Below are positions 5,499-20,149 of a DNA stretch of 64,000 nucleotides, piece by piece. The notes under the pieces are model-generated. The model worked only from the letters and a program-made list of their open reading frames with translations, ran no database searches and was not told the origin of the DNA. The DNA is from Balneolaceae bacterium (lineage in GTDB: Bacteria; Bacteroidota; Rhodothermia; Balneolales; Balneolaceae): assembly GCA_020832285.1 (NCBI GenBank), contig JAFIFB010000129.1:62001-126000 (forward strand), given 5' to 3'. Every line of letters begins with the position of its first letter. The first letter of the stretch is position 1. The position numbers and the translations under genes are program-made.

Positions 5499-8400
5499 TT
5501 AGAAGTTTAAATTGATATTAAAACCGAATGATGTTGAAAACGGCATGATATTCTGCCTTTCTGTCCCCATTCTGAAGAGCATGGCTGTATCACCCTGTGT
5601 GCTTCCCTGCGCCTGAAATGCCCGTTCAGGGTCAATCCCTATTCCAGCTTTCGTCCAGAGCAATAAATTTCTGGTAAACACTGACACTCTCAAATTGTTG
5701 ATACCCATAAATGCCGGCACATCGTACCCAAGTGCCAACTCCCTCAGCTTGATGAAATCAGCATCAAAAATCACCTGTTGGTTAAATCTCCAGGCAAACA
5801 TGTTTGAAGCCGGTCGAACGATAGTGCCTTCTCCTCCCAGGTGCTCAATATATTCACCGGTTTCGGGATCAACTCTTACGCCGGGTATAAATACACCGTC
5901 GTACCCGGTAACTCCTCCTTCATCAACATACATACCACCGGCTTCCTGGGTATAACCACCCACCCTGGGAAAATGTCCGTTTCGCGGAATGATGTATGCG
6001 TCCGGATCTGACTTCAGCAATTCGATCAGCTCTTCCTCTGAATAATGACCTCCGGGAATCAGATTTCTCATCTGGTTTGCATCTTTCCAGTTTGAACCGC
6101 CATACCGGTAGGTCGACGACATAAACTCCCCGCCAATTCTCCAATCGATACTTGCGCTCAGCGACCACCTCTTATATTGCAGCGTGGATTGCCCGCCAAC
6201 AAGAAGATCCGGGTTAAAGTTACCAACCTTAATCCAGTCTTCAGGATCGTCAAGCCGTATCCACTGTCCACCGCTGTCTACGATAGGCCAGCCATGGTAT
6301 TCGGAGTTCGGATCTTCCACACGGGCGTAGCCCCGGCTGTACATGTTGCCGACTTCCTCACCCACATGAGTGTAAGCACCAGCACCATTTTCACCCCAGA
6401 ATTCAATTCTGTCAAAATCGTCACTCAGCTCAATCAACCTGGTGCGGTTTCTCGTAAAGTTCATATTCACATCCCAGCTGAGATTGTTTGTCAAAACAGG
6501 TGTGCCGCCAATTGCAATTTCCCAGCCTTCACTTTCCAGCATACCGGCATTGATCAGTCTGCTGGAAGCTCCTGAAGAGGATGGGGTGCCCAGGCGCAGA
6601 ATCTGGTTTTTGTTTTCCACCTGGTAGTAAGTTGCCTCAAACCGGACCCTGTTTTCAAACATATTCAGGTCAATACCCCCTTCAAATGAAGTGGCAATCT
6701 CTGGTTTGAGCTGCGGATTCAGCATTTGTCCGGGAATAGTTGCAGTGGGAATTCCCATACCGGGAATGGTTCCAACAGAAAGTGTTTGCTGAAGCTGGTA
6801 TGGGTTGGTGTCGTTACCTACCTGTGCCCAGCCAAATCTGAACTTCAGCATGTTAATATCTGATGGCAGTGAAAAAGTCTCGTTTGCCAGCCAGCTTAGT
6901 GATACAGAAGGATAGAAATAGGACCGGTTATTGGCCGGAAGTGTGCTCGACCAGTCGTTTCGTCCGGATACATCCAGGTAGAGCTGGTACCTGAACCCAA
7001 TAGAAGCGGTTGCATAAAGACTGTAAATTTTCTTGAGGCTTGAAAAATTACGGGCGTCCAGTGAATTGATCGGAATATTGGAAACCGTATACAAGCCGGG
7101 TACGCTCAATCCGTCATTCCGGTTGGCATTATTCACTCCGTTATAGACATCACGGTACGAGTTTTCCATATAGTTACCACCGCCGGACAGACTGAAATCA
7201 AAATCATCGGTCTGATTTTGATAGGTAATCAGGAAGTCCGTGTTGATTTCATCATTGGCCAGCTCCTGCAGAAAATATCCGCCTCTTGCCATCCTCGAAT
7301 AACTCCAGGGAATTTTGGACTCCCGGTTTTCGCTGCTGCTGTTCAGTGATACACGTGCAAACATACTGAGGTTTGGCAGGATATCCCAGTCCGCCCTCAC
7401 ATTACCGAATACCCTGTTTCTAAGAAAGCTATTGTTAATTCCATATGCCAGAAACCAGGGGTTATCCTGCCCTGAAGCATAAGATCTTTGCTGAATCCCT
7501 TCTTGTCCCGGCTCCCAGTAATCACGAAGTTCCATAACATTCACATGCGGTGCAAAGTAGACTGCTTCCAGAGGGTTTGCCCTCCTGTCTTGTGTGGACG
7601 GCCGGTTATCTGAGTTGGATCTTGAGTAGTTAATATTCATGCTCACACTCAGGTTCTCCAGAATATCCCTTGTCAGTGCGGTTGAAACTGCATTCCGGTG
7701 AAGGTCTGAGTTGGGGATCATCCCGTTGTGGAACATGTTATTCGCTGAGAGCTTGTAAACCGTATTTTCGGTTGAACCCGTAATTGTGATATTATTATTG
7801 GATGTAACCCCGGTATTGAGAAAATTCTTCATGTTATCGGGATAAGACCTCAGTTCAGTCGGTACCCGATTTCCGTTATCATCGAGCGGACTGTTCCACT
7901 GAACAGCCGTATTACCAACATCCAGCTCCGGCCCTGCCCAATAGGAGGAACTCTCATCCAGAAATGCGTTTCGGTTTCCGCTTGCATACTGGTAGTGATA
8001 GTCTACGTATTCAAAAGGCCGTTCAAACACATTGCTTGTACTTACACTAACACGTACAGGGTCTCCTCTTTGGGCCTGCCTGGTTGTTATCAGAACCACA
8101 CCGTTTGCAGCCCGTGAACCATACAGAGCAGCGGCACTCGGACCTTTCAGAACTGTCATATCTTCTACATCACTTGGGTTCAGATCAGTAATTGCATTAC
8201 CGTAATCCACCTCATTCCCATCTCCGAATGTTGTCACATTGTTAAGGCCGCTTGTTACCGGTACGCCGTCAATCACATATAGCGGCTGATTATCTGATGT
8301 CAATGAGGTCATCCCCCTTATAATCAGACTGATAGAAGATCCCACACCGCTGGTTTGATTCACTTGCACACCTGCCATACGGCCGCCGAGACCACCGATA

Positions 8401-14960: not shown

Positions 14961-15058
14961 CCTGTACCGTAAATATTCAGGATTATTCATGTTGGTGAAT
15001 TATACAGCCGAAAAAAATCGGCTTGAACGCTTTTACTCAATTTCAAAACCGATTTAAA

Positions 15059-16231
15059 ATGCCCGATTCACAAGATATTCACTCCTTAAAAACCCTGTTT
15101 GAACAGGAACTCTTTGAAAACATTATCCCTTTTTGGGAAACACATAGCCCTGATCGTAAACATGGAGGCTATTACAATTGTCTTGACCGGGAAGGTCGTG
15201 TGTTTGATACTACCAAGCATGTATGGCTGCAGGGGCGTCAGGCCTGGATGTTCAGCAAGCTTTACAACCAACATCAGGCAAGGCCGGAATGGCTGGAGAT
15301 CGCCAGAAATGGTATCAATTTTCTTCGAAACCATGCCATCCGCCCCGACAAGCGCCTTTATTTCAGTCTGACTGAAAAAGGCCAACCGGTTTGGATTCAG
15401 CGAAAAATTTTTTCCGAGTGCTTTTATATCATCGCCCTTGCCGAGTTCAGCCGGGCTGCAGATGAGCCATATCTGATGGAGGAGGCTGAAGAGCAGTTCG
15501 AAATCGTATGGAACTGGTCGAAAGATCTTTCTCAACTTGGCAGGCCTGTGCTTGAAGGACAAATACCCTCACGGAGTTTGGCTATACCAATGATTTTATT
15601 GAATGTGATTGAAGAACTAACGAGTGGAACTCCTGCAAGATATGTACAGGAAATTGAAGAGTGCATCAGGCAGATTTTACTGCATGTTCATGCAGACAAA
15701 CAAACCGTATTTGAAACCGTGGGAAAGGATGGACAGTTTCTGGATACAATGGAAGGTAGGCTGCTGAATCCCGGCCACGCGATTGAGGCTGGCTGGTTTC
15801 TTCATCAATGGGCTGCAATTCTAAACGACGACGGGCTTCAGCAAACCGCCATTAGTATGATCCGCTGGTCACATGAACGCGGATGGGATCAGAAACACGG
15901 GGGACTCTTTTACTTTCTGGATTATAAAGGACACAGTCCCACGCAGCTTGAGTGGTTTATGAAGCTCTGGTGGCCCCACAACGAGGCGATGATCGCCCAT
16001 CTGATCAACTATTCGGTAACGGGTGAACAGATGGACTGGGATCTCTTCAAAAAGGTTCAGGAGTATTCATTTCGTCATTTTCCTGATAATGAAAACGGTG
16101 AATGGTTCGGTTATATGAATCGGGAAGGAGAAGTGACCCATTCCTTCAAGGGCGGACCGTATAAAGGATTTTTCCATGTCCCAAGGAGTTTGTGGACCTG
16201 TTTTAAACTTTTGGAAAAGCTAGAAAATTAA
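15059..16231 (+). CDS. N-acylglucosamine 2-epimerase (AGE / renin-binding-protein family)
   Basis: 390 residues from the ATG at 15059; an in-frame TTG at 15023 would only add 12 atypical residues. AGE motifs appear in order: GGYYNCLDREG (~30), KHVWLQGRQAWMFSKLY (~48), LNPGHAIEAGW (~232, catalytic His region), WWPHNEAM (~301), and HSFKGGPYKGFFHVPRSLW near the end (second catalytic His). The enzyme interconverts N-acetylmannosamine and N-acetylglucosamine in the cytoplasm. In Bacteroidota the sialic-acid route uses such an epimerase after the lyase, so here it links sialic acid to amino-sugar metabolism. No ManNAc kinase is visible, as expected for this route. Confidence 0.92.
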   Translation: MPDSQDIHSLKTLFEQELFENIIPFWETHSPDRKHGGYYNCLDREGRVFDTTKHVWLQGRQAWMFSKLYNQHQARPEWLEIARNGINFLRNHAIRPDKRLYFSLTEKGQPVWIQRKIFSECFYIIALAEFSRAADEPYLMEEAEEQFEIVWNWSKDLSQLGRPVLEGQIPSRSLAIPMILLNVIEELTSGTPARYVQEIEECIRQILLHVHADKQTVFETVGKDGQFLDTMEGRLLNPGHAIEAGWFLHQWAAILNDDGLQQTAISMIRWSHERGWDQKHGGLFYFLDYKGHSPTQLEWFMKLWWPHNEAMIAHLINYSVTGEQMDWDLFKKVQEYSFRHFPDNENGEWFGYMNREGEVTHSFKGGPYKGFFHVPRSLWTCFKLLEKLEN

Positions 16232-16235
16232 CAAT

Positions 16236-16268
16236 AACCCTCCAAGGGTTTGGAACCCTTGGAGGGTT
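16236..16268. repeat. REP palindrome, copy 1 (RAYT-associated)
   Basis: Perfect 15-bp arms AACCCTCCAAGGGTT and AACCCTTGGAGGGTT with a TGG loop, 5 bp after the AGE stop. Identical arms occur at 17088 and 17490. It may also serve as the AGE terminator. Confidence 0.85.
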
Positions 16269-16311
16269 TAATGAAATCAATATTTAAGCCATAGAAATTT
16301 CTCTCTCACAT

Positions 16312-16737
16312 TTGTTATCCGACATTCGCGCTGCTTGCCGGGCAGAATCCCAAAAAGAAAAGTCCGGACAAGAATCATTGGAAGATCATTTCAAGGATAT
16401 TGACCGCTGGGTTTCCGGAGATGCCAAACAAACTTTGAGCTATTTTACCGGTCTTGAGAAAGACGCTTTTCCACCATACAATCAACTCAGTGACGATGAG
16501 GTGAAAAAAGTATGCGATGCATTTACAGCTATGCTGAATAGCTGGAATGTTGGCCTGGACGTACCCGATGAGCTGCCGCTGGACAGACAATATGAACTGA
16601 TGGTGGGGTTGCTGGATCATGAATTTACCCCCTTCCATACCGGCATGTTTATATTTGATTTCTGCACCGGCTATGCCCCGGGTTGTGAATTGGAAGAATA
16701 TTGTCCATGCCTCGAAATTTGGGAAGAAGATTTCTGA
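16312..16737 (+). CDS. Small hypothetical protein between REP elements (TTG start, possibly truncated)
   Basis: 141 codons from a TTG at 16312; there is no usable ATG nearby. The first ~20 residues look atypical, but residues ~25-141 have a protein-like composition, including FKDIDRWVSGDAKQTLSYF, DDEVKKVCDAF, LMVGLLDHEFTPFHTGMF and a Cys/acid-rich tail (CTGYAPGCELEEYCPCLEIWEEDF). The four clustered Cys could bind a metal. It ends exactly where a CCTCCAAG palindrome begins and is bracketed by REP copies. I do not recognise the family. It may have lost its original 5' end when the REP/RAYT block arrived. Confidence 0.5.
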   Translation: MLSDIRAACRAESQKEKSGQESLEDHFKDIDRWVSGDAKQTLSYFTGLEKDAFPPYNQLSDDEVKKVCDAFTAMLNSWNVGLDVPDELPLDRQYELMVGLLDHEFTPFHTGMFIFDFCTGYAPGCELEEYCPCLEIWEEDF

Positions 16738-16762
16738 AAACCTCCAAGACCTTGGAGGTTTT
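16737..16762. repeat. REP-like palindrome variant
   Basis: Perfect 12-bp arms AAAACCTCCAAG and CTTGGAGGTTTT with a 2-nt loop. It shares the CCTCCAAG/CTTGGAGG core with the 33-bp REPs but is shorter. It starts at the stop codon of the small hypothetical gene and lies 71 bp before the transposase gene. Confidence 0.75.
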
Positions 16763-16833
16763 GGATGCAAGAAATGTTGTAAGGAATTCTGTATTTGGGG
16801 TTCATACTATAAAGTGGAACCAAATCAAAGAAA

Positions 16834-17475
16834 ATGGCACAACCTTCTGTCCCACTCGAACCGGGCCAAATGTATCACATCTGGACCCACGCCAACGGAA
16901 ATGAAAACCTTTTCCGTAAGGAAGAAAACTATCCCTATTTCCTTAACAAATACGCCTGCTACGTTACGCCGGTTGCTGATACGTTTGCATACTGCCTGAT
17001 GCCGAACCATTTGCATTTTATGGTACGGGTGAAGATGGAAGAGGTGGTGCTGGAGTTTTTGAGGAATAGGAAATCGAATCCAAAACCAACCCTCCAAGGG
17101 TTTCAAACCCTTGGAGGGTTTAGTAACGTCATCAGCCGTCAGTTTTCAAACCTTTTCAATTCCTACACCCAGGCATACAACAAAGTTTACAAACGAAAAG
17201 GCAGCCTTTTCACACCCAACTTTAAACGAAAGCTGATCGACTCTGACAACTACTTTGGCACTCTTATCGCCTACATCCACAACAACCCGGTGCATCACGG
17301 TTTTGTGGAGGCGGCGCATGAGTGGCCACACAGTTCCTGGAATACGTATTTGCAAGATAAGTCAACCAAGGTTAAAAAAGAGGTAGGATTAGAATGGCTT
17401 GGTAATCGCGAGCAGTTTTTTAGAATGCATAGGGAAATACGAATGGAAAAATTGACCTCATTATTTGAGGAATAA
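16834..17475 (+). CDS. REP-associated tyrosine transposase (RAYT, Y1/HUH type)
   Basis: 213 residues. The HUH motif is in YCLMPNHLHFMVRV (~54-67). The downstream catalytic region NLFNSYTQAYNKVYKRKGSLF (~108-128) and YIHNNPVHHGFVEAAHEWPHSSW (~149-171) match the TnpA-REP family, with the catalytic Tyr probably in SYTQAYN. RAYTs are single-copy, domesticated relatives of IS200/IS605 transposases that recognise REP palindromes. Four REP-type palindromes lie within 0.6 kb around it. Uniquely, one 33-bp REP lies inside the gene in frame and encodes about 11 residues (PTLQGFQTLGG region, ~86-96), between the HUH and Tyr parts. The frame stays open, so the protein may still be functional. Confidence 0.9.
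   Translation: MAQPSVPLEPGQMYHIWTHANGNENLFRKEENYPYFLNKYACYVTPVADTFAYCLMPNHLHFMVRVKMEEVVLEFLRNRKSNPKPTLQGFQTLGGFSNVISRQFSNLFNSYTQAYNKVYKRKGSLFTPNFKRKLIDSDNYFGTLIAYIHNNPVHHGFVEAAHEWPHSSWNTYLQDKSTKVKKEVGLEWLGNREQFFRMHREIRMEKLTSLFEE
17088..17120. repeat. REP palindrome inside the RAYT reading frame
   Basis: Arms AACCCTCCAAGGGTT and AACCCTTGGAGGGTT with a TCA loop, against TGG in the two flanking copies. At 33 bp it adds exactly 11 codons and leaves the frame open. Confidence 0.9.
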
Positions 17476-17489
17476 ACTCTATTTAACTA

Positions 17490-17522
17490 AACCCTCCAAG
17501 GGTTTGGAACCCTTGGAGGGTT
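17490..17522. repeat. REP palindrome, copy downstream of RAYT
   Basis: Same arms and TGG loop as the copy at 16236, 14 bp after the transposase stop. It may double as a terminator for the transposase and for the convergent lyase gene. Confidence 0.85.
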
Positions 17523-17610
17523 TCCAAGGCAACAAAACAACAATCGTTGTGTTAACCCCAATTTCAGCAATCTGGCAAAAACTGTTCTTTGTAAAAATCG
17601 GACTAACGGA

Positions 17611-18540
17611 TCAGCGACCCGTTGTACGCTCAGCCATCAGCGCATAATCAAAAAAGCCGCACTCTTCCAGGTCCTTTCTTAGATTTGAAATCTGTGAATC
17701 TTTGAGCGTTTGAAAAGGCAGCCTGCTGGCTCCGCAGTCCACGCCGATCATCTTCATCGCTGCCTTGGATGCCGCATTGTAATTGTACTTATCAAGAACT
17801 TTTACGAACTGAATCGCTTTTACCTGAAGCTCTCTGGCACGATCCATCCGGTTGTTTTCAAACGCCTCCCGGATTTCCTGATATAACCCGGGAAACAGGT
17901 TATAGGTGCTGCCAATAAAACCTTTTGCCCCGGTGGCCAGTCCGGCAAGATACATCTCATCATTGCCGTAAAGCATATCATACTTTCCGTTTTGGAACAC
18001 ACGGCACAAATTATATTCAGAAAGATCGCTGGCAGTAAATTTCAGTCCTGCAAGTGTCGGAATTTTTTCACTTGCGTGTTTCATAAAATCAACCATCGAA
18101 AAATCAATACCAGTTAAAACCGGAATGTGGTAATAATAAAAGGGAATATCAGAGACCTGAGCGGCTACCTGCGCACAAATTTCCACCAAAATTTCCACAG
18201 TTGAGGATTTCTGGTAAAATGGACCGATTGTAGAAATTCCATCCACACCGTTTTTACCGGCGTGGGCTGCAAACTCTTTCGCCTCATTTAGACTGTTACT
18301 GCCGATATGCACAATCAGTTTGAAATCAGTATCCACTACTCTGCTCCATTCTTCACAAAGCTCAAGGCGTTCTTTGTATGTAAGTGAAAGGCCCTCTCCG
18401 GTACTGCCGTTTAAAAACACACCTTTGATCCCATTCTGCCTGTAATATTTATACAGTGGCTTTACCATTTCCAGGTTGATACTCCCATCCTCTTGCATCG
18501 GAGTGAATGCTGCCACTACAAGTCCATCAATTTTGTTCAT
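17611..18540 (-). CDS. nanA: N-acetylneuraminate lyase
   Basis: About 309 residues from the ATG at 18540, preceded by AAAGAAG; the upstream ATG at 18573 adds 11 charged residues and is less likely. DHDPS/NAL fold motifs: GSTGEG (~46), FYYYHIPVLTG (Tyr ~137) and AGLKFTASD (Schiff-base Lys ~165), then YGNDEMYLAGLATGAKGFIGSTYN. These match the sialic-acid lyase branch. The enzyme splits N-acetylneuraminate into pyruvate and N-acetylmannosamine in the cytoplasm. It is the last gene of the minus-strand symporter-sialidase-lyase operon, and the AGE epimerase upstream of it takes the product onward. Confidence 0.93.
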   Translation of the reverse strand: MNKIDGLVVAAFTPMQEDGSINLEMVKPLYKYYRQNGIKGVFLNGSTGEGLSLTYKERLELCEEWSRVVDTDFKLIVHIGSNSLNEAKEFAAHAGKNGVDGISTIGPFYQKSSTVEILVEICAQVAAQVSDIPFYYYHIPVLTGIDFSMVDFMKHASEKIPTLAGLKFTASDLSEYNLCRVFQNGKYDMLYGNDEMYLAGLATGAKGFIGSTYNLFPGLYQEIREAFENNRMDRARELQVKAIQFVKVLDKYNYNAASKAAMKMIGVDCGASRLPFQTLKDSQISNLRKDLEECGFFDYALMAERTTGR

Positions 18541-18589
18541 TTGCTTCTTTTGTTGTCCGTTTCGGTTTATCATACGTTTTCAAAGTCCT

Positions 18590-20149
18590 TTATCGACCTA
18601 AAAGTTCATCAAGTTTTATTTTCTGAAAGTAGAGATCGCGTACCCCTTCGTACAAAATGCCAACCGTTTCCTCATCAACCATCGTCAGGCTTGAATATCC
18701 AAATCCACGGTTTTCATCCAGTAACAACTGATGCGCAACAGGCCATGTTCTGCCCTGGTCTTTACTCAATTTCAAAGTCATGTTCACGCGGGCGGCCGTA
18801 CTGTTCGGGTTTGAAAATAAGAGATAATTATGATCATATCCGCTTGTCTCGGGATTTGACTGTATCAGGCTGGCCATCGAAACAGGCTCCTGTAATGCTA
18901 AACGCGAACTGGAGTGTTCATGCCAGGTTTCTCCCATATCGCTGGTGGTATACACCGATCGTGCTCCGCCGCGGTTGTCCCGCATGTTAATCATCAGTCT
19001 GCCTTCATCCAGCTCAACTACCTGAGCTTCAGTTGTGTTCGATCGCACGGGTGAACCGATCTCCCAGGTCTCGCCCTGGTCTTTGCTGTAGACGATGGTT
19101 GACCACGGCATCTCGTTTTCATCTTTATACTGCGCGGCAAATACAAGGGTACCGTCCTTCATGGTGATTCCGTTTCCGGGGCCCATCAACAAAAGGTGCC
19201 ATTCAGGCTGTTTGATCTGATTGGTAATGTTGATGGGATCAGACCAGGTCTGGCCGTCATCTTCACTTTTCACGAGCATAAATTGTCCGGTCTCCTCCGG
19301 GTTCATCCCCTGCTGTGATGAAAACCATGCGTGCGTGCCGGGATAGCCGTGAATCCAGAGTGCAGACACCCAGATGGTTCCGTTGTTCCGATCCACAAGA
19401 ATCGCGGGATCCCCTATTCCGTTTTCACTGACTGGACGCCCGCCCCACTCGCCCATATCAATAATAATTTCCATTGGCTCCCAGGTCTCCCCGCCGTCGG
19501 TGCTTCTGCTGAGTCCAACATCTATATCTCCCTGCAAATCGCTGGAATCGTCATACCTCACGTCATATACAGCCAGCAGCGTACCTTCGTTTGAGGTTAC
19601 CATTCCCGGAATCCGGTAGGTATGCACCCCATCCTCATTGGCTTTTCGGATCTTTTTTGCGGGTCTCAGAGCAGTGTTCGGGCGATCACTTTCTGCCCGG
19701 TATTCGCTGCCGTTTAGCTGAATGGATTTGGAATCAATCTCAAGCAGATCGGTGAGTGATATCATATCATTCAGTTCAACCGATACCCAAAAGTAATTTC
19801 GACCTTTATGAAGTGGCTTCTGTAACGGGATCGACATCGTTTCATTAATTACTGTTGATGAGCCGATCTGTTCCTCGGCAGAAAACTCATTTTCGCTGCC
19901 GGTGTAAAATATCTGTACTTGTTCGATGTAGTCTGAGGTTGAACGGCCCAATTCCAGGGTAATACCATCGGCCACCACATCGGTACGGGTGGTTAAAACT
20001 TCGATTTTCAAAACGGGATTGTGAGTCTCTCCTTTAAATATTGGCTGCAACGGTTTGTGGACCGAAACAGAAGCAGTACTCTGGGCGAAAGTCGAGGAAG
20101 CAAACAGCATTAATGCCGGGAACAGAATAATTAGTAAAATAGATCTCAT
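18590..20149 (-). CDS. Exo-alpha-sialidase (GH33) with N-terminal beta domain
   Basis: 519 residues with a signal peptide (LIILFPALMLFASSTFAQ). Residues ~25-160 form a beta-sandwich-like N-terminal domain. The GH33 propeller follows: YRIPGMVTS (~180, first active-site Arg), the acidic YDVRYDDSSDLQGDIDVGLS loop, then Asp boxes STDGGETW, SEDDGQTW, SKDQGETW, TSDMGETW and SKDQGRTW. VVELDEGRLMINMRDNRGGAR supplies the second Arg region and GYSSLTMVDEETVGILYEG the nucleophile-Tyr region. All hallmarks of a working sialidase are present. It releases terminal sialic acids outside or in the periplasm, for import by the symporter encoded just upstream. Confidence 0.94.
   Translation of the reverse strand: MRSILLIILFPALMLFASSTFAQSTASVSVHKPLQPIFKGETHNPVLKIEVLTTRTDVVADGITLELGRSTSDYIEQVQIFYTGSENEFSAEEQIGSSTVINETMSIPLQKPLHKGRNYFWVSVELNDMISLTDLLEIDSKSIQLNGSEYRAESDRPNTALRPAKKIRKANEDGVHTYRIPGMVTSNEGTLLAVYDVRYDDSSDLQGDIDVGLSRSTDGGETWEPMEIIIDMGEWGGRPVSENGIGDPAILVDRNNGTIWVSALWIHGYPGTHAWFSSQQGMNPEETGQFMLVKSEDDGQTWSDPINITNQIKQPEWHLLLMGPGNGITMKDGTLVFAAQYKDENEMPWSTIVYSKDQGETWEIGSPVRSNTTEAQVVELDEGRLMINMRDNRGGARSVYTTSDMGETWHEHSSSRLALQEPVSMASLIQSNPETSGYDHNYLLFSNPNSTAARVNMTLKLSKDQGRTWPVAHQLLLDENRGFGYSSLTMVDEETVGILYEGVRDLYFQKIKLDELLGR

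Follow-up and report, generated by a model that had tools for sequence, protein, structure and literature searches.

In-frame REP palindromes, usually of the gene's own repeat type, within RAYT genes of Bacteroidota-type genomes

According to the main text of Quentin et al. (2018; PMC6006769), insertion of REPs inside tnpA_REP genes is a unique feature of subclass 2.4 (Bertels group 4): the insertions preserve the frame, fall in the interval between the HuH and Tyr motifs and vary in length and sequence, and the insert is assigned to a peripheral loop away from the DNA-binding and catalytic sites, probably with little effect. In-frame REPs are known in unrelated genes as well (PMC3733652), and these, like the Rickettsia palindromic elements (RPE), are in-frame palindromic repeats in protein genes; unlike the repeats described here, both kinds are spread across many unrelated genes, with no reported link to the gene of the presumed moving enzyme. 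A REP inside a RAYT gene is already known in kind (PMC6006769). What is new here is that the in-gene REP usually matches the gene's own repeat and that the palindrome is intact even as the last copy in a genome; in our literature search of open-licence papers, the main text of PMC6006769 was found to report no evidence on cognate type, orphan copies, reading phase or breakpoints.

The RAYT gene and its in-frame REP

The window, that is, the whole analyzed stretch of 64,000 nucleotides from a Balneolaceae bacterium, contains the following features.

16834..17475, + strand: RAYT (REP-associated tyrosine transposase, TnpA_REP) gene; ORF with ATG start, 213 aa
17088..17120, + strand: in-frame REP palindrome; 33 bp, perfect, 16 nt + 1 + 16 nt
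16236..16268, no strand assigned: upstream flanking REP with the same arms, directly after the preceding epimerase-like ORF
17489..17523, no strand assigned: downstream flanking REP with the same arms
16737..16762, no strand assigned: variant palindrome of smaller size, AAAACCTCCAAG-ac-CTTGGAGGTTTT, in the interval that separates the RAYT gene from the upstream ORF

The encoded protein contains the HuH motif in the form NHLH (residues 58-61) and a catalytic Tyr (Y147) within YIHNNP, that is, the combination of HuH with a single Tyr in Y-I-x-x-N-P that characterizes class 2 TnpA_Y1; N58, H59, H61, Y147 and N151 show no variation across 63 aligned proteins. The profile scores are below the family cut-offs, at 65 bits for NCBIfam REP_Tyr_transpos (cut-off 80 bits) and 19.5 bits for Pfam Y1_Tnp (cut-off 23), and a Pfam search at the default E-value yields no match. 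The AlphaFold2 (AF2) model (pLDDT 93.5) shares the fold of E. coli TnpA_REP (PDB 4er8; Z 16.9, 159 residues, rmsd 2.5) and aligns with the IS608 and ISDra2 transposases at Z 7.5-8.7; 4er8 is also the sole chain found in a sequence-profile search of the PDB. By the sub-cut-off NCBIfam score together with the AF2 match to 4er8, the window gene is a RAYT, and it is flanked by dispersed genomic REPs, as expected of such genes. With the translations judged by eye, its neighbors (window positions 15023-20149) read like an N-acylglucosamine 2-epimerase, an N-acetylneuraminate lyase and a sialidase, i.e. a sialic acid cluster. A second RAYT gene of the host genome (L019, G000:C125:42719-43327) has an in-frame TAG and lacks an internal REP.

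The earlier note on this DNA described a REP with the arms of the flanking copies inside the RAYT frame, and the palindrome is indeed perfect, the central 3 nt and the outer bases being the sole differences from the flanking REPs. The addition of exactly 11 codons between the HuH and Tyr regions, with the frame kept open, is likewise borne out: the 33 nt encode TLQGFQTLGGF (approximately residues 86-96), which lies in the loop that connects the HuH strand to the long helix alphaC. In the AF2 model, this helix spans residues 88-118 and starts inside the REP peptide, the confidence being poor at residues 81-90 (mean 65), which include the first half of the peptide. As that note also suggested, the gene holds what looks like its own DNA substrate, given that this REP type flanks the gene and is the dominant one in the host genome (5.33 Mb, 99% complete), where 16 exact copies of the core were found, or about 18 with mismatches allowed, almost all outside long reading frames. 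The REP copy in a 166-aa frame at L248 is extragenic after all and lies between two sulfatase-like genes.

A chance palindrome is ruled out by the 16-18 genomic copies, by the scores in the homologue survey described below and by synonymous recodings of the same loop, for which the arm score is 5.2 +/- 1.3 compared to 16 for the in-gene REP. An in-gene transcription terminator was set aside because no T-run follows the hairpin. The folding energies of the in-gene REP region, -44.3 kcal/mol (z -4.4) as RNA and -22.1 (z -3.4) as single-stranded DNA, mean only that the hairpin can form.

With subclass 2.4, as characterized in the main text of PMC6006769, the window gene shares the in-frame REP in the beta3-alphaC interval between HuH and Tyr, the HuH-Tyr distance (88 aa), YIxNNP and the occurrence in Bacteroidetes. 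The key motif set of that subclass (NH[IFV]H, WQ, YIxNNP) is nevertheless incomplete, with NHLH in the window protein (NHFH in many relatives) and the key W replaced by F126, F being invariant in 63 proteins. A possible further difference from subclass 2.4, which is said to lack them, is that the window gene encodes an SS motif (residues 167-168) and C-terminal helices (residues 182-211), as seen in the alignment and the AF2 model; these resemble the proximal SS domain of other subclasses. The window REPs also differ from those of subclass 2.4 in lacking the GT[AG]G foot: no common GTAG or GTGG is found beside 17 aligned genome copies, so that recognition by the known RAYT rule is not to be assumed. 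A GTAG-type tetranucleotide at the REP foot is typical but not universal, the structures of subclass 2.6 being atypical (PMC6006769). Subclass 2.6 (Bertels group 5), as described in that main text, is similar to the window gene in its Bacteroidetes distribution, NH[LIV]H, YIH[QN]NP, SS motif and atypical flanking secondary structures; however, it has the WQ motif, and its 21-aa insertion is in the alphaC-beta4 interval, whereas the window family varies in length before alphaC. E. coli TnpA_REP (4er8, a 165-residue chain) has the same fold with a much shorter loop at the site of the REP insert, and E. coli REPs contain a bulge and GTAG (PMC8266576), unlike the window REPs.

In-gene REPs in homologous RAYT genes

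We surveyed 134 distinct homologues. Almost all stem from Bacteroidota-type genomes, and the sample is skewed towards relatives of the window gene. Palindrome scores in the loop between HuH and alphaC are bimodal, with at least 10 (mostly 13-18) in 46 of the 134 genes and at most 9 in the remainder; elsewhere in the same genes, the best score is 10 for the N part and 9 for the C part. Because 88 of the 134 homologues have no strong palindrome in the loop, RAYT function in general does not depend on an in-gene REP. The REPs found in the loop represent at least 15 types, e.g. CCTCCAAGG, CCTGACAGG, CCTTCAAGG, CTTTTCCAAAG, GATCCGCAAAG and CTCATCAAGG, and related genes have different types at the same position; several REPs within one gene are present in L086, L111 and L194. 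At the L194 locus (G094:C165), the RAYT gene is duplicated in tandem; each of the copies encodes several REP-like loop peptides, and identical REPs lie in between. At L175, a stretch similar to the coding sequence that comes after the in-gene REP (SGLLLKQF) also follows the upstream REP (5779-5811, minus strand coordinates); here, a REP may have moved together with adjacent coding DNA, or the stretch may be a gene remnant.

In 39 genes, the REP has more than one open phase; 34 of these genes use the same phase, and odd phases are found in L182, L184, L117, L068, L080 and L081. About 19 changes are needed on the tree to account for the presence and absence of the REP. These repeated changes of presence and type, together with the odd phases, rule out a single old insertion, inherited unchanged, as the sole account. 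Across 39 in-gene REPs, which were chosen as palindromic, 98.5% of the cells are paired, with 132 double changes compared to 36 in the shuffled set. Where the loop has no palindrome, the peptide is mostly absent or visibly altered, as in TLQGIKDLTGF (L162) or KFETLEKL (L082), and no intact peptide was found to be encoded by unrelated, non-palindromic DNA in the REP-free homologues, so that the earlier note's derivation of the peptide from REP DNA stands for intact peptides. Its expectation of an 11-residue gap in homologues did not hold, since the loop is variable in length anyway and the REP-free homologues show no clean gap.

In most cases where flanking or genomic REPs exist, the in-gene copy matches them in type. 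The similarity of in-gene REPs to their own flanks (+-6 kb) is 0.60, compared to 0.42 for the flanks of other genes (permutation p = 5e-5, with relatedness ignored). Own flanks rank first for 18 of the 46 in-gene REPs and, when set against the flanks of the nearest relative, win in 28 cases, lose in 15 and tie in 3, many of the losses being genes without a nearby REP; for about 20 of the 46, there is no matching REP within 6 kb. Genome G106 encodes two RAYTs, one with CTCATCAAGG inside and in the flanks, and the other with CCTGACAGG inside and in a flank. The match extends to sub-types, with AAACCTCCAAGGTTT inside and outside L054 and AACCCTCCAAGGGTT inside and outside the window gene. An exception is G046, where the only CCTGACAGG copy sits inside the RAYT gene and 31 copies of CCTCCAAGG are located elsewhere in the genome; replacement of the REP type is possibly in progress in this case.

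Retention of the palindrome

In the clade of the window gene, retention extends to the palindrome itself and is not limited to the peptide. A tree from which the loop was left out places the window gene in a group of 21 genes (SH-aLRT 93, not starred). The palindrome is preserved in 19 of these (15 of 17 if five close relatives are counted as one), which between them have five REP types. In G062 and G044, which represent one genus, the palindrome is starting to lose pairs. Among same-type pairs, a shared residue is encoded by the same codon in 88% of the cases in the REP arms versus 55% elsewhere, a contrast that is biased upwards because the pairs were picked by arm similarity.

The palindrome can survive in genomes that yielded no further copy. 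In G064, G076, G079, G075, G054, G048, G051 and G081, the exact in-gene type is present in a single copy, the in-gene one. With 3 mismatches allowed, the in-gene copy is still the only one in G076, G079, G054, G051 and G081; G064 and G075 have one further degenerate copy each, and the G048 type was searched in exact form only. In each of the orphan pairs G064/G076 and G051/G081 (draft genomes, 97-98% complete), 8 of 8 arm codons for shared residues are identical, whereas the fractions outside the arms are 0.49 and 0.50; simple multiplication gives 0.003 and 0.004 for genes that were preselected for having the palindrome. Recent loss of donor copies in the orphan genomes is possible.

The REP is not confined to the RAYT gene: in the same genome, one other gene, a hydantoinase/5-oxoprolinase-like gene (L012, 197-3016, minus strand; G000:C76:17184-17212), was seen to contain an in-frame copy, which encodes NPPRVENPWRV, in a phase different from that in the RAYT gene. 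The idea that the in-frame REP is special to RAYT holds only in part, given this second gene and the published RAYT cases (PMC6006769). Among the related hydantoinase genes with an enlarged loop, a strong palindrome is found in 2 of 11, being decayed or absent in the others; the difference from the 19 of 21 in the RAYT clade is significant by Fisher's test (p = 9e-5), for a control gene chosen after the fact. The L012 linker also reads NLQGF...NLGGF, as if derived from older split REPs, and the relatives G005 and G016 carry different versions of the REP in this loop.

Explanations for the in-gene REP

The best explanation, to which we would assign slightly less than an even chance, is that the encoded RAYT recognizes the in-frame cognate REP, located in a surface loop before the DNA-binding helix, and that this hairpin serves for self-limitation or as a seed. 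The RAYT would recognize this hairpin of its own gene in the form of either folded single-stranded DNA or mRNA. RAYT dosage would thereby be tied to the RAYT's own substrate, and one matching REP would remain physically linked to the gene and act as a seed upon its movement. REP turnover, via conversion from flanking copies or fresh insertion, would change the in-gene type, and the loop would accommodate the resulting peptide, with a single reading phase in nearly all cases. In favor of this explanation are the restriction of strong palindromes to the loop in 46 of the 134 homologues, the match to own flanks, the two RAYTs of G106, the retention in the clade of the window gene and in the orphan genomes, the contrast with the hydantoinase and the four broken genes described below. 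Against it stand the published placement of the loop away from the DNA-binding and catalytic sites (PMC6006769), the 88 homologues with no strong palindrome, the about 20 in-gene REPs with no match within 6 kb, the G046 exception, the loss of pairs in G062 and G044 and the missing GTAG foot. Of the three readings offered in the earlier note (self-limitation, a tolerated insertion and a coding role for REPs), self-limitation probably fits best, and a self-recognized regulatory or seed hairpin would be the function that fits the data best. Less likely is the further-reaching reading in which the in-gene REP is a selected built-in substrate, such that no other genomic REP would be needed, RAYT activity would be self-limiting, a new REP family would be seeded upon transfer and the gene would sometimes be destroyed by REP-REP rearrangement. 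The fragmentary RAYTs that we examined are mostly frameshifted or edge-cut, and four are broken at a REP: L187 (G068) consists of the N-terminal half and stops directly behind an intact REP, the N-half in L251 (G016) stops at a damaged REP, the C-terminal half in L185 (G085) starts with the right arm of a REP, and in L249 (G021), the middle of the gene is missing from a point next to a REP arm. These four breakpoints fit REP-REP deletion or cutting at the REP; ordinary repeat recombination would look alike.

The published reading (PMC6006769), under which a flexible, permissive loop near a source of REPs collects functionless copies, seems rather unlikely to us, and for the clade of the window gene, a tolerated passenger is unlikely to be the whole story. 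The in-frame REPs in unrelated genes (PMC3733652) and, in another phase, in the hydantoinase loop are in its favor, as are the probable several independent origins in RAYTs, implied by the approximately 19 presence/absence changes and the odd phases, and the low AF2 confidence for the first half of the peptide. However, a tolerated insertion is predicted to decay at the synonymous rate, whereas 19 of the 21 genes in the clade of the window gene still have the palindrome at synonymous saturation, including those in donor-free genomes; this retention without donor copies, along with the hydantoinase control, weakens the notion of mere tolerance in this clade. Overwriting of the in-gene copy by dispersed or flanking REPs through gene conversion would produce both the match and the intact palindrome with no function involved, in accord with the sub-type matches of L054 and the window gene to their own flanks and with the in-place type switches that keep the frame. 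Conversion requires donors, however, and eight near-complete genomes have no other exact copy of the in-gene type; recent donor loss could rescue this account, which we regard as improbable. Least probable, to the point of being a marginal candidate, is a function of the peptide itself, whereby its hydrophobic residue at every third position (LxGFxNLxGL) would extend alphaC and tune DNA recognition, the palindrome simply following from the coding. The shared phase in 34 of 39 genes and the AF2 helix that reaches back to residue 88, inside the peptide, are compatible with such a role, but the phase may be mere inheritance, many homologues lack the peptide, and the synonymous identity and base pairing are left unexplained.

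The orphan in-gene REPs argue against the view, expressed in the main text of PMC6006769, that these inserts are unimportant. For the question of how RAYTs and REPs are jointly maintained over long times, the genomes whose last REP of a given type is inside the RAYT gene represent a minimal, testable RAYT-REP pair.
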